A stretch of DNA of 25,548 nt from a virus: positions 1-25,548 of the IMG/VR virus record IMGVR_UViG_3300036770_001482. One strand, 5' to 3'. Under the pieces are notes generated by a model, which saw only the letters and a list, made by a program, of their open reading frames with translations, was not told where the DNA came from and made no database searches. How positions within the stretch are numbered: position 1 is the stretch's first letter; each line of letters opens with the position of its first letter. Below, piece after piece: positions 3,094 to 14,651 of this stretch. The position numbers and the translations under genes were made by a program.

Positions 3094-3638
3094 CCCTACC
3101 TAAACTATTAGTAATTGGCAATGCACGCCACGGCAAAGATACGGTATGCGATATTTTACGTGAGGATCACGGGTTTAGTTTCCGATCTAGTTCAGATTTT
3201 TGTGCTGAACGATTTATTTACAATGAACTAAAACTCAAGTACGGATACAACACTTATACAGAATGTTTCGAAGATAGGCATAATCATCGAGCAGAATGGT
3301 ACGACATGATTCATGCATATTGTCAAGACGATCATGCTCGTCTTGGGCGAGAAATCTTTGCAGAAAATGACATTTACTGTGGCTTGCGAAACAAAGCAGA
3401 ATTCCACGCTATGCGCAATACAGGTGTTTTTGATTATGCTATTTGGGTAGATCGTAGCGACCATTTGCCTGCTGAAGATCCAAGCAGCATGAGTTTAGAA
3501 ATTTGGATGGCTGACTATGTAATTGACAATAATGGTACTGTTGAGCAATTGCGACATAACACTAACAATCTAATCAACATGTTGATTAAGCGTCGGGCTC
3601 AAGGTCTCCAGACTTCCAAACAGAATCACTCCGTTTGA
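3090..3638 (+). CDS. gp1: Deoxynucleoside monophosphate kinase, T4 gp1-like P-loop kinase
   Basis: A 182-residue P-loop protein with an N-terminal strand (KLLVIG) leading into GNARHGKDT (residues 10-18), a Walker A typical of phage dNMP kinases (compare GVKRSGKDT in T4 gp1). It would phosphorylate dNMPs to dNDPs with ATP. A late segment, FDYAIWVDRSDHLPAEDPSS, looks like the strand and flexible lid of NMP-kinase folds. T4 gp1 is 241 aa, so this version is short. The ATG overlaps the dexA stop (ATGA), indicating translational coupling. The 3' end overlaps the convergent minus-strand gene by 53 bp. Substrate specificity cannot be read from the sequence. Confidence 0.65.
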   Translation: MTLPKLLVIGNARHGKDTVCDILREDHGFSFRSSSDFCAERFIYNELKLKYGYNTYTECFEDRHNHRAEWYDMIHAYCQDDHARLGREIFAENDIYCGLRNKAEFHAMRNTGVFDYAIWVDRSDHLPAEDPSSMSLEIWMADYVIDNNGTVEQLRHNTNNLINMLIKRRAQGLQTSKQNHSV

Positions 3639-3933
3639 CTTCCTCTACACAATTCAAGCATATAGTTTTTAGATTACGAACGTCGGTGTTGTGTAAATTA
3701 CCGTCGATGTGAAATACCAGTAACTGCGCTGAATACCTTGCTCTAAACCCACATAAGTCACATGTGGGTTTTTTCTTATAGCCGGATGCTTTCCAGCGTG
3801 GCTCGGGCACCTTAATTTTTTTATTCTTTTTAATGCAGTGCTCACACAGGCGTCTGTACTGCGTTCTTGTATCAGTGTGATAGGCAATTGCCCGTGGTCT
3901 TTGGTTGCAAGCCAAGCATAAAGGTCTAAACAT
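3586..3933 (-). CDS. Zinc-finger / HNH-like protein on the minus strand
   Basis: A 115-residue protein read from an ATG at 3933. It has four CxxC pairs (C6/C9, C30/C33, C58/C61, C92/C95), and its C-terminal half has the look of an HNH nuclease (CDLCGF ... HIDGN ... NLKTICLNC) with H75 as the candidate general base. Similar proteins occur as hypotheticals in T4-like marine phages. An in-frame ATG at 3975 would add 14 residues, but the conserved sequence begins at MFRPLC, and a late-promoter word in minus orientation lies 8 nt before this ATG. It is the only minus-strand gene I support here and converges on the dexA-gp1 operon, overlapping it by 53 bp. It could be a free-standing homing-type nuclease or a structural zinc protein; function is uncertain. 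Confidence 0.7.
   Translation of the reverse strand: MFRPLCLACNQRPRAIAYHTDTRTQYRRLCEHCIKKNKKIKVPEPRWKASGYKKKPTCDLCGFRARYSAQLLVFHIDGNLHNTDVRNLKTICLNCVEEVKRSDSVWKSGDLEPDA
3745..3775 (+). terminator. Intrinsic terminator of dexA-gp1 operon, embedded in the antisense gene
   Basis: AAACCCACAT (3745-3754) and ATGTGGGTTT (3762-3771) form a 10-bp stem with a 7-nt loop, running into a T tract (3769-3774). On the minus strand the same bases encode the Lys-Lys-Lys-Pro-Thr-Cys zinc-knuckle part of the HNH-like protein. The T tract follows the stem only in + orientation, so it terminates + strand transcription. Confidence 0.7.
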
Positions 3934-3999: not shown

Positions 4000-4006
4000 C
4001 TAAATA
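4000..4006 (+). promoter_or_regulatory. Late promoter word CTAAATA for gp18
   Basis: CTAAATA lies 25 nt upstream of the sheath ATG (4032), with a Shine-Dalgarno AAGGA at 4021-4025 between. Standard leader architecture for an abundant structural protein. Confidence 0.65.
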
Positions 4007-11349: not shown

Positions 11350-12876
11350 ATGACATTTTTCTATAACTTAAACAAAACTCTTGACGCTATTCGCGCCAAA
11401 CCAGAGACTACACACGGCCAGTTAAATGAACGTGCTAACAGTAAACGTAAAGAAGAAGATCTAGAAGAAGGGTTTGTAGACACAGTAAAGTCAGCAGCAC
11501 AAAAAGCATTGAATGTTCTTGGTCACGGCGACGACGAAGCCATGATTAGAGACTTGCAGAAAAAAGCCGGGGTTCCTCAAACAGGCAAAGTTCCTACACA
11601 ACAAAAGCCTGCACAAACAAACCCAACTACTGCTGGACAACAGCCAATGTCTGAAGACGACATGGAAGAAGGTAATAAGTTTACTGGCAATCTAGCCAAG
11701 GCTCGTGCCGCTGGTAAAAAACAAGCCGACCTCGATGGCGACGGCGATATGGAAAAAGTTCGTGAAGCCAAAAAATCTAAACCTGATTTCTTAGACCTTG
11801 ACAAGGATGGCGATCGTAAAGAGCCAATGAAGTCTGCTGCTCGTAAGATTGCTGGCAAGCGTTATGGTGGCGCTGCACAAAAAGACGACGAGCCAGAAGT
11901 TAAGCCAGAAGTACCACGTGGTCGCGGTCGTCCTAAAAAGCCCACAGACACAGAGCAAGGTGCAGAACTCAAGCCAGACTGGTCTGCATTTGGCATTGGC
12001 AAGGTTAAACTACCTGCACACAAAGGTGCTGTAACTAAACACAAACTAAGCGACAAAGAGCCAGGTAAGAAAAAAGCAATGTCTCGTGCAGAAATTGACG
12101 AAGCAATTGCTGCTCTCGAAGAATGTGGTTACAGTGTTACTCCTTTAGAAGAAAAAGCAGTAAGCAAAAAGCAACAAAAGTTTATGGGTATGGTCCACGC
12201 TGCACAAAAAGGCGAAAAGCCTGCTAGCAAAGAAGTTGCTAAAGTAGCCAAGACAATGAAAAAGTCCGATGCTGAAGATTTTGCTGCTACTAAGCACAAA
12301 GGCCTACCAGAAAAAGTTAAAAAGACCAAAGAAGTCGAAGAAACAACAGTTGCTGGCAGCGTTGCTCCTTCTGCTGCTGCCCCAAAAAGCAGCAAAGGCG
12401 GCTTTACTTTTGGTAAAGGTATCTACGACAGTTTAAATCGTGAAGTAGAAGCCATGATTTCTGAGTCTATGAACGTCAGTGTAAACATGACTGTAGACGC
12501 AGACGGTAATCCGAACAAGTCTATTACAGTTAGTGCCGACGGAGAGTCAGCAGATCACCTAGCACAGTTATTAAACTTAGCAGGACTTCCAGCACAGGAA
12601 CAAGAAGCATGCGAAACATGTGGACAAACACCTTGCGGGTGCGATGAAGAAATTGTAGATGAAAATTCTCCCGATTGGCCAACTGACTCTGAAGTTACCG
12701 GTGAAGACGATCCAGAAATGCGTCGTTGGGCAGGTGGCGTAAACGGTCCTAAGTCAACCGGTCAAACTGTTGGTGCTCCGTTTAACCGTCAAGATCAACG
12801 TCAGGGCGTGATGTCCGAGAACAACGATCTTGGTTTATCGTTGTTCCAAGAATATACAAAATACAAGGCAAAGTAA
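11350..12876 (+). CDS. Large low-complexity modular protein, AT-hook and Ca-loop motifs; probable virion or core protein
   Basis: A 508-residue, highly charged protein with recognisable short modules: two EF-hand-type acidic loops (DLDGDGDMEKV 127-137; DLDKDGDRKEP 149-159), an AT-hook PRGRGRPKK (189-197), a segment like DUF3008 (KKQQKFMGMVHAAQKGEK ... DFAATKHKGLPEKVKK, about 273-325), a small beta module (NVSVNMTVDADGNPNKSITV, about 375-395) and a four-cysteine knot CETCGQTPCGC (421-431). LEEG (about 38-41) and MEEG (105-108) resemble gp21-type cleavage sites. It has no membrane segment. The mix of DNA-binding and acidic motifs fits a prohead core or injected DNA-associated protein, but this is inference. 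The stop overlaps the next start by one base. Confidence 0.75.
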   Translation: MTFFYNLNKTLDAIRAKPETTHGQLNERANSKRKEEDLEEGFVDTVKSAAQKALNVLGHGDDEAMIRDLQKKAGVPQTGKVPTQQKPAQTNPTTAGQQPMSEDDMEEGNKFTGNLAKARAAGKKQADLDGDGDMEKVREAKKSKPDFLDLDKDGDRKEPMKSAARKIAGKRYGGAAQKDDEPEVKPEVPRGRGRPKKPTDTEQGAELKPDWSAFGIGKVKLPAHKGAVTKHKLSDKEPGKKKAMSRAEIDEAIAALEECGYSVTPLEEKAVSKKQQKFMGMVHAAQKGEKPASKEVAKVAKTMKKSDAEDFAATKHKGLPEKVKKTKEVEETTVAGSVAPSAAAPKSSKGGFTFGKGIYDSLNREVEAMISESMNVSVNMTVDADGNPNKSITVSADGESADHLAQLLNLAGLPAQEQEACETCGQTPCGCDEEIVDENSPDWPTDSEVTGEDDPEMRRWAGGVNGPKSTGQTVGAPFNRQDQRQGVMSENNDLGLSLFQEYTKYKAK

Positions 12877-13988
12877 TGAGTCTAAAAAAGTACATTGCAG
12901 AGGCAGAAGCAAGACAAGATATCCCCGAAGCCGGGGACAATTTTGCCATTGAACTAGAAGATGGCACACTGCTAGAAACTTATATTATTAGTGTATCCAA
13001 TGACACTATTGTAGTGGATTCAACTCCTCGCATGATATCTGTACTCAGAGAATGGGCGGATCTTGACGGAGAAGCCAGTGATGTATTGTTTGAAGGACAA
13101 TTTAAACAACGCATGTATCAGACTGCTGAACGCATGGAATTAAAAGACTTCGTTGAGAGATTTGGACATTTATTCTCTCAAGGAGAAGCCGAACAGTTTT
13201 GGCGTTCGGTCAACGGTGTTGAAGAGTCAGACTATGACACAGAAATTGAAGTAGTAGATCAAGGCGAGTACGACAACGAAGGCGACATGGCTAAAGATGA
13301 TTTAGCAACTATTATACGTGCCGCCCGTCGACTTACAGGCATGTTAGATGATAATGAAAACATGCCAGAGTGGGTCCAGAGCAAAATCAACAAAGCCGCT
13401 GATTATGTAGATACTGCTGCAGATTATATTGAAAGCAACAAGAGCGATTTTGTAGCAGAAGATAATCATGAAAATAATCCAGTAGCAAATGCTATTACCG
13501 CTCGAATTCTTCGCCAGCGTACTGATTTGTTAGCCAAATACGGTCCGGGCTATGTTACACAAGCAATTGATGATGTTGCCGATTCTATAAACATTGGTCC
13601 CGATGATGAAATTGGCTCAAGTGATGTTAGTTCATGGGTTAGAGCAGTAGAACGTAATTTACAAAGTAAATTAAATCGCTACGACGAACCAATGGACGTT
13701 GGCGATGCGCTAGACGAAGCCGAGTACCAGGGTCGTGAAGTACCGCTAGGCAAACCCATGCGTGGTGATGTCGCCAAATTTAAAGTCTACGTTCGTGATC
13801 CATCAACTGGCAATATTAAAAAAGTAAACTTTGGACATGGGGGCACATCGGCTCGACGTGCCGGTCAAAAGACTATGCGAATCAAGAAAAGCAATCCGGC
13901 TAGAAGAAAATCGTTCAGGGCTAGACATAATTGTGATAATCCCGGACCGAAGACAAAGGCGAGATATTGGTCTTGTAGGGCTTGGTGA
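12876..13988 (+). CDS. Modular virion-protein candidate with IP-like N terminus and basic ARHNC tail
   Basis: A 370-residue protein beginning MSLKKYIAEAEARQ, again resembling a capsid-targeting sequence with cleavage site IAE|A. At least four modules follow: a small beta domain (NFAIELEDGTLLETYIISV, 22-60), a helical module (MAKDDLATIIRAARRL ... KAADYVDTAADYI, 138-185), a second helical module (ITARILRQRTDLLAKYG ... IGSSDVSSWVRAV, 207-258) and a basic C terminus (from about 283) ending in ARHNCDNPGPKTKARYWSC (349-367). I recognise the modules as recurring in different combinations in environmental T4-like phages, without an assigned function. The ATG overlaps the previous stop. A GC-rich hairpin (TCCCCG/CGGGGA, 12922-12937) lies 46 nt after the start. 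Confidence 0.75.
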   Translation: MSLKKYIAEAEARQDIPEAGDNFAIELEDGTLLETYIISVSNDTIVVDSTPRMISVLREWADLDGEASDVLFEGQFKQRMYQTAERMELKDFVERFGHLFSQGEAEQFWRSVNGVEESDYDTEIEVVDQGEYDNEGDMAKDDLATIIRAARRLTGMLDDNENMPEWVQSKINKAADYVDTAADYIESNKSDFVAEDNHENNPVANAITARILRQRTDLLAKYGPGYVTQAIDDVADSINIGPDDEIGSSDVSSWVRAVERNLQSKLNRYDEPMDVGDALDEAEYQGREVPLGKPMRGDVAKFKVYVRDPSTGNIKKVNFGHGGTSARRAGQKTMRIKKSNPARRKSFRARHNCDNPGPKTKARYWSCRAW

Positions 13989-13995
13989 TCTCAAT

Positions 13996-14022
13996 AAGTC
14001 ATACTAAATAAATGTATGACTT
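13996..14022 (+). promoter_or_regulatory. 9-bp inverted repeat with late promoter in its loop and the GIY-YIG start codon in its right arm
   Basis: AAGTCATAC (13996-14004) and GTATGACTT (14014-14022) are perfect complements. The spacer is TAAATAAAT, giving the late word CTAAATA at 14004-14010. The ATG (14016-14018) lies in the right arm. Read-through mRNA would hide the start codon; mRNA begun at the local promoter would lack the left arm and be free. This mirrors the known layout of T4 I-TevI. Confidence 0.7.
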
Positions 14023-14642
14023 CATCGATTTATAAAATTACAAATCAAAATACAAACAAATCCTATATAGGTTGGACTAGTCAGTCTATAGAAGTGCGAT
14101 GGAAGCAACATAAAAAATCTGCTGATAAAAACAAAGATAACAGACCTTTTTATAATGCTTTAAGAAAATATGGTCATGAATGTTGGATAGTCGAATTATT
14201 GGAACAGGTGCCTACTAGAAAAATCGCCAAAGAAAAAGAAATAGAGTATATAGATTATTACAAAACTTATGATGTTGGATACAATGCAACACGCGGCGGC
14301 GATGGCAATAACGGAATTCAAATGTCAGCAGAATCAAATAGTGCTAGAAGTACTGCGTTAAAGGGAAAATCTAAAAATTACGATCGCATGGCAGGCAAAA
14401 AACACACAATTGAATCTCGTAAAAAAATATCCGAGGCCCATACTGGTATGAAAAAGCCTTGGGTTAAATGGACGCCTGAGCAAATAAAAAAACGGGCAAT
14501 GACTAGAAGATCATTAACTGAAGATCAATACAACAAAATACATCAACTAAGGAATGAAGGATATACTATTAAATTCATTGCAGATGCAGTAGATGCTAAT
14601 CCAGATGTTGTAAAAGTTTGGTTAAAGAAAACCTGGAATTAA
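14016..14642 (+). CDS. Free-standing GIY-YIG homing endonuclease (Seg-like)
   Basis: A 208-residue protein with a GIY-YIG nuclease domain at 1-95: SIYKITN (GIY replaced by SIY) and SYIGWT (YIG), R28 in EVRWKQH, and the metal-binding Glu in AKEKEIEYI (E75), followed by GYNATRGGDG. A NUMOD3-type DNA-binding repeat follows (about 127-148, GKKHTIESRKKISEAHTG) and a C-terminal helix-turn-helix (about 169-205, with EGYTIKFIADAVDANPDVV). It sits between two apparently complete genes rather than in an intron, so it is probably a mobile, intron-less endonuclease that spreads by cutting alleles lacking it. A/T-rich codons and AAA-rich stretches differ from its neighbours. The start codon is inside a hairpin that contains a late promoter. 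Confidence 0.9.
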   Translation: MTSSIYKITNQNTNKSYIGWTSQSIEVRWKQHKKSADKNKDNRPFYNALRKYGHECWIVELLEQVPTRKIAKEKEIEYIDYYKTYDVGYNATRGGDGNNGIQMSAESNSARSTALKGKSKNYDRMAGKKHTIESRKKISEAHTGMKKPWVKWTPEQIKKRAMTRRSLTEDQYNKIHQLRNEGYTIKFIADAVDANPDVVKVWLKKTWN

Positions 14643-14644
14643 CG

Positions 14645-14651
14645 CTAAATA
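14645..14651 (+). promoter_or_regulatory. Late promoter word CTAAATA after the endonuclease gene
   Basis: CTAAATA lies 21 nt before the ATG at 14673, with Shine-Dalgarno GGAG at 14661-14664. It restarts late transcription after the mobile gene. Confidence 0.65.

Follow-up and report, generated by a model that had tools for sequence, protein, structure and literature searches.

A late promoter inside a start-codon hairpin at a phage homing endonuclease gene, with probable leaderless translation

Start hairpins in T4 and Aeh1

Inhibitory structures at the translation start have been described in phage T4 for gene e, gene 49, the three I-Tev genes, and segB (PMC2988022, PMC3014915). Hairpin-type control has been reviewed for the homing endonuclease genes (HEGs) I-TevI, I-TevII, I-TevIII, and segB of T4 and mobE of phage Aeh1, along with e and others that are not HEGs (PMC2988022, PMC3014915). 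In gene e, transcripts from local late promoters lack the structure's 5' half (PMC3014915). The segB gene has been grouped with I-TevI-type regulation (PMC2988022).

The locus examined here lies in a 25,548-nt viral sequence (IMG/VR record IMGVR_UViG_3300036770_001482, positions 1 to 25,548; hereafter the window), where a hairpin at 13996-14022 covers the start of a GIY-YIG endonuclease gene. It resembles segB as a free-standing GIY-YIG gene with the late promoter and ATG in a strong hairpin. On re-folding, segB gave a structure of -19.4 kcal/mol whose left arm carries the late promoter (CATAAATA) and whose right arm carries the ATG. Unlike the window gene, segB has a Shine-Dalgarno (SD) sequence, a promoter 22 nt from the ATG, and tRNA genes as neighbours. 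The window gene has a promoter spacing of 5 nt and no SD, is predicted to be leaderless, and is located among late structural genes.

With I-TevI, I-TevII, and I-TevIII, the window gene shares a hairpin that contains the promoter and, in longer RNA, masks the translation start (PMC2988022; I-TevI and I-TevII were also folded here). Those genes differ in being intron-encoded, in having an early or middle long RNA, and in sequestering the SD rather than the AUG alone. Aeh1 mobE is also a free-standing HEG, and its RNA structure has been shown to lower translation initiation (PMC3014915, PMC2988022). This Aeromonas phage gene is likened to the window gene by its description only and differs in encoding an HNH enzyme, in sequestering the ribosome-binding site, and in having further layers of control. 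An earlier note on this DNA had presented the free-standing gene as a contrast to T4, a claim that segB and mobE already contradict (PMC2988022, PMC3014915).

The same note proposed the logic of T4 I-TevI. As in I-TevI and SegB, a helix joins RNA upstream of the local 5' end to the translation start, and a T4-type late-promoter word lies within the hairpin, such that locally started RNA would lack the left arm. The proposal holds for this promoter within a start-hiding hairpin. It fails for the SD that is sequestered and then freed, since at 14016 only the AUG is paired.

The hairpin at the endonuclease start

The elements of the locus are listed in Table 1. Direct reading of the sequence confirmed what the note had reported, namely a perfect 9-bp inverted repeat with the late word in its loop and the start codon in its right arm. 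The C of CTAAATA closes the stem, and TAAATA makes up most of the loop. A pattern search for the 27-nt hairpin gave one match in the window and none in 100 shuffles. This 27-mer folds at -9.5 kcal/mol (z -6.6, with no shuffle equal), and its 65-nt context folds at -11.1 (z -3.7). Three of the nine pairs are G-C and no T run follows. An intrinsic terminator was considered for 13996-14022 and rejected: a terminator scan gave no match there, and a GC-rich stem and T run are lacking.

Table 1. Features of the endonuclease locus in window coordinates
Feature	Position	Strand	Basis or remark
Upstream gene, 370 aa, structural gene cluster; stop codon 13986-13988	12876-13988	+	
Conserved 3' coding module of upstream gene (...ARYWSCRAW*)	13914-13988	+	
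Left hairpin arm AAGTCATAC	13996-14004	+	Direct reading, pattern match, fold
Late-promoter word CTAAATA	14004-14010	+	Enrichment before starts, near spacing class; 5 nt to ATG
Hairpin loop TAAATAAAT	14005-14013	+	Direct reading
Right hairpin arm GTATGACTT, with start codon ATG 14016-14018	14014-14022	+	Direct reading, fold
Predicted 5' end of local RNA	14016-14017	+	T4 geometry and ATG peak; uncertain by about 2 nt
Free-standing GIY-YIG HEG with NUMOD3, 208 aa	14016-14642	+	PF01541, PF07460, phrog_314
Second CTAAATA, past HEG stop codon; presumed promoter of downstream gene	14645-14651	+	
Downstream gene, 98 aa	14673-14969	+	Directly 3' of upstream gene in several HEG-less relatives

On its own the 13996-14022 repeat says little, because perfect 9-bp repeats are not rare in the window. 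About 9 distinct ones are present, several of them terminator-like, against a shuffle mean of about 2 in a count that includes nested repeats. What counts is placement on both the promoter and the start codon. Two of the perfect repeats touch a start codon, those at 13996-14022 and 2556-2576, and only the former contains a promoter word. The latter, ATTTTGCTA/TAGCAAAAT, has its end at the start codon of the gene beginning at 2575. When the promoter word and coding bases were held fixed and the flanks alone were shuffled, pairing across the transcription start site (TSS) as strong as that of the window (-9.5) arose in about 1% of shuffles (z -3.1).

The endonuclease gene and its neighbourhood

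The 208-aa product matches PF01541 (1.2e-9), PF07460 (2.6e-5), and the homing endonuclease group phrog_314 (4e-31), and the GIY-YIG residues are invariant across its family. An Rfam scan gave no match near 13996-14022, and thus there is no sign of a known intron. Judged from the conserved residues, the NUMOD-type DNA-binding part, and the lack of an Rfam intron match, the gene at 14016-14642 is a free-standing GIY-YIG homing endonuclease gene.

Its neighbours are head and tail (structural) genes in synteny with phage PA5oct, where the annotation records mass-spectrometric detection of several products of the syntenic region. Members of the HEG family adjoin the 3' end of the ...ARYWSCRAW* module in diverse phages, and the DNA of this coding module may be the homing target of the family. 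In the form ...ARYWSC..W*, the module terminates different genes in different phages (13914-13988 in the window; L003-L018). At the corresponding junction, a CTAAATA-type word was found in 0/17 HEG-less relatives. For this reason the cassette seems to supply the promoter of the downstream neighbour as well as its own. Promoters of downstream genes also lie within T4 HEGs (PMC2988022).

A second candidate nuclease gene is present on the minus strand of the window (3586-3933), opposite structural genes. It encodes a small HNH protein with a weak PF01844 match, and GATAAATA stands just 5' of the internal ATG at 3933, the likely true start. Small HNH genes with near-class promoters (defined below) also occur in G001, G002, G010, and G016.

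Late promoters and leaderless starts

Reading TAAATA as a late-promoter word, as the earlier note did, agrees with two results. The word NTAAATA is about 10-20x enriched upstream of gene starts (within 60 nt), both in subsets and across the full 1.78 Mb made up of the window and related viral records, and a gp55-like late sigma gene was found in 6/6 large relatives searched. Sigma-70-like promoter matches in the window did not exceed chance.

Computed without a gene caller, the distance from TAAATA to ATG shows two peaks, at 4-7 nt and 17-24 nt. The 4-7 nt peak is absent for GTG and TTG, and a control word of the same composition gives no comparable peaks before ATG. The T4 genome shows mainly the distant peak. 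SD-like words precede 4/124 near-class genes compared with 137/191 distant-class genes. Late-promoter words before ATG therefore appear as two classes: one at 4-8 nt without an SD, probably leaderless and not evident in T4, and one at 17-28 nt with an SD. Words of these classes occur in the window at 4000, 7464, 10203, 10711, 14004, 14645, and 18861, and also in relatives. In PA5oct, a distant relative by terminase, the 45 kb checked contained a single clear start-proximal promoter word.

In T4, the late TATAAATA sits at about -13 to -6; by this geometry, near-class RNA would start at the AUG. The endonuclease promoter has near-class spacing, and direct reading finds no SD upstream of the ATG at 14016. 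Its local mRNA is consequently predicted to be leaderless, with the AUG itself as the probable 5' end. No description of leaderless T4-like late mRNAs was found in the open-access literature, within the part covered.

Start hairpins at other endonuclease genes

For each gene preceded by NTAAATA at no more than 60 nt, a free energy was computed for pairing of the RNA on one side of the expected 5' end with the RNA on the other, with the promoter-to-5'-end distance taken from T4. Shuffles kept the promoter word and coding bases. Endonuclease genes were defined by HMM, blind to hairpins, and include small HNH proteins that are perhaps not all homing enzymes. When the score was applied to T4 as a positive control, gene 49, I-TevIII (from the caller's start, an internal one), e, I-TevI, and segB filled the top five places of 37; soc and segE did not stand out. 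Genes e and 49, with their inhibitory structures at the translation start, resemble the window gene in this respect and differ as phage lysis and recombination genes rather than HEGs.

A cross-TSS helix at p<=0.01 was found at 8/23 endonuclease genes and at 23/370 other late-type genes (Fisher 1.3e-4). With the window excluded, it was found at 7/22 endonuclease genes (Fisher 5.8e-4). Because the endonuclease genes are partly related, these p-values are optimistic and approximate. The records had been selected for carrying this GIY-YIG HEG family or its neighbour gene, and comprise metagenomic contigs, some fragmentary, with gene starts from a simple caller. An earlier, smaller comparison with 14 HEGs pointed in the same direction. 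At the remaining 15/23, more than half of the endonuclease genes with this kind of promoter, no helix was significant. Among non-endonuclease genes with a promoter at most 8 nt from the start, 2/110 reach a strong helix; the hairpin therefore does not simply come with the near promoter class. An AUG hidden in read-through RNA and a local RNA without the left arm, as the earlier note envisaged, are supported in silico, and the design is far commoner at endonuclease genes than at others.

Start hairpins occur in unrelated families, including HNH (G001 L131), zinc-finger-like NUMOD3 (G004, G015), and GIY-YIG (G010, G003). In two other endonuclease families, with orthologue sets gathered by protein similarity alone, each left arm pairs better with its own start region than with those of relatives. 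In arm-swap permutations, the matched pairing was reached by 2/5040 and 66/20000.

Several individual cases extend this picture. L242-L249 (about 900-1700) encode an endonuclease family with a zinc-finger-like N-terminus and NUMOD3 within tRNA clusters, often with an apparent 5' tRNA half before the gene and an intact tRNA after it; their start hairpins carry the late promoter in the left arm. L183 (start 18788) encodes a protein with a GIY-YIG-like N-terminus that the HMM searches did not pick up. Its CTAAATA lies between TGACAAC and GGTTGTCATG, the latter holding the start codon, in the same layout as in the window. GC-rich hairpins with a late promoter in the loop also precede non-HEG genes at L218 (about 4079), L206 (about 6134), and L134 (about 2916, minus strand), where they possibly combine a terminator with a promoter or exert the same start control on structural genes.

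Orthologues and the wider family

A search of viral contigs for the exact hairpin context returned 22 matches, of which only L001 and L002, the latter on a 337-kb contig, are true orthologues, the other matches being to unrelated sequence. These two show 69% identity to the window gene, and TCAATAAGTCGTGCTAAATAGAGCATGAC precedes the gene in both. Relative to the window stem, 7/9 pairs are kept; one A-U pair has become G-C by a double change and another has become G-U, and outer pairs are lost (one in L002, two in L001). The chance of 2+1 substitutions sparing all seven inner pairs ranges from 0.03 (any base) to 0.29 (transitions only). Pair counts in L001 and L002, which form one lineage, do not exceed those of shuffles (178/500), and the arms are interchangeable between the window and L001. 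Comparative evidence for the window's own stem, drawn from one diverged orthologue lineage, is thus weak. Compensation in relatives, for which the earlier note had called, is hinted at by the seven pairs and the double change; the loss of outer pairs, the single lineage, and the lack of significance weigh against it.

About 30 different upstream regions from the family came out of a profile search. Most members have no promoter of their own and start at, near, or overlapping the upstream stop codon. TAAATA at promoter spacing was found in three lineages (the window, L001/L002, and L016), in all of which it is embedded in a hairpin. L270 was left out of this count, as the 1 nt between its word and its ATG leaves too little room for RNA to start at the AUG. 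In L016, a more distant member, the hairpin is unrelated, with GATAAATA inside and an SD-like AGGA in the right arm. Searches of bacterial genomes for HEG orthologues gave distant matches only, and named phages held no close relative, with about 27-38% identity among the matches listed.

Proposed mechanism and rival explanations

The hairpin, the promoter word, the missing SD, and the way the design recurs at this group's endonuclease genes are all read directly in the sequence. From them we infer, with moderate confidence, that the endonuclease is translated from a local leaderless RNA and not from read-through RNA. The HEG cassette would carry its own T4-type late promoter within a hairpin whose right arm holds the start codon. 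Read-through RNA from the upstream structural genes would contain both arms and, with its AUG paired and no SD, would yield little endonuclease. A late (gp55-type) polymerase would start at CTAAATA, producing RNA whose 5' end falls on or beside the AUG; this RNA would be free of the left arm and be translated as a leaderless mRNA. Endonuclease output would in this way be limited to the cassette's own promoter and decoupled from the late operon.

The simplest competing account is an ordinary late promoter with a leaderless start, in which the inverted repeat is incidental and irrelevant to expression. The window's fairly common perfect 9-bp repeats, the pairing-prone AT-rich promoter word and start-proximal bases, and the retention of only 7 pairs in the orthologue are all compatible with it. 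Even without a hairpin, moreover, the absence of an SD would leave read-through RNA poorly translated and its AUG weak. Against these points stand the roughly 1% of flank shuffles that reach the observed pairing, the double change in the L001 stem, and the difference between 8/23 endonuclease genes and 2/110 same-spacing non-endonuclease genes, and we regard an incidental repeat as unlikely. Translational coupling, with a ribosome finishing at 13988 opening the hairpin and tying endonuclease output to upstream translation, would draw on the left arm starting 8 nt past the upstream stop codon and on the other family members, most of which overlap or abut that stop. A ribosome ending there could indeed melt the left arm, which counts against the hairpin model. 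Coupling is nevertheless very improbable given the missing SD near 14016 and the 27 nt from stop to start, unlike the overlapping members, and it would make the cassette's own promoter unnecessary.

Even less credence is given to a DNA operator, in which the endonuclease or another dimeric protein would bind the palindrome and repress the late promoter, like I-TevI. The I-TevI operator overlaps its own late promoter and resembles the homing site (PMC2988022), and the window repeat likewise overlaps the promoter. Yet the repeats at other endonuclease genes are unrelated in sequence and are positioned on the start codon or SD and the promoter, as the RNA model predicts. A boundary element, where the hairpin terminates the upstream operon and the loop promoter restarts transcription, appears the most remote of these options. 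GC-rich hairpins with a loop promoter before non-HEG genes, some of them followed by T-rich sequence (L218, L206, L134), provide a precedent, but the window hairpin has three G-C pairs and no T run.

For the preferred reading of start-codon sequestration with local leaderless expression, the early-versus-late timing suggested by the earlier note is doubtful in these surroundings. Since the neighbours are structural genes, read-through RNA is itself expected to be mostly late, although some of it may be early, and the likely benefit is therefore insulation of dose from the operon rather than early silencing. Insulation from operon read-through likely fits better than an early/late timer.

Implications for late gene control in T4-like phages

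For this group of large T4-like phages as a whole, the case is evenly balanced that a sizeable share of late genes is leaderless and that unrelated HEG families have repeatedly gained a promoter within a hairpin, with the bare AUG or both SD and AUG hidden in read-through RNA and with a local RNA, leaderless or with a short leader, that lacks the left arm. The earlier note had left convergent and inherited control side by side. The differing stem sequences and geometries among unrelated nuclease families favour repeated origin of start-hairpin control, and inheritance is less favoured. As far as found within the literature searched, the AUG-only, probably leaderless form is new, as is the recurrence of such hairpins across several HEG families in large T4-like phages from the environment.

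Together, these results suggest that T4-type late genes include a leaderless class, one not apparent in T4 itself, and that the start-adjacent arms of the recurring HEG hairpins are matched to each gene. They further suggest that a mode of control known from a few HEGs of T4 and Aeh1 is widespread and evolved repeatedly across nuclease families and phages.
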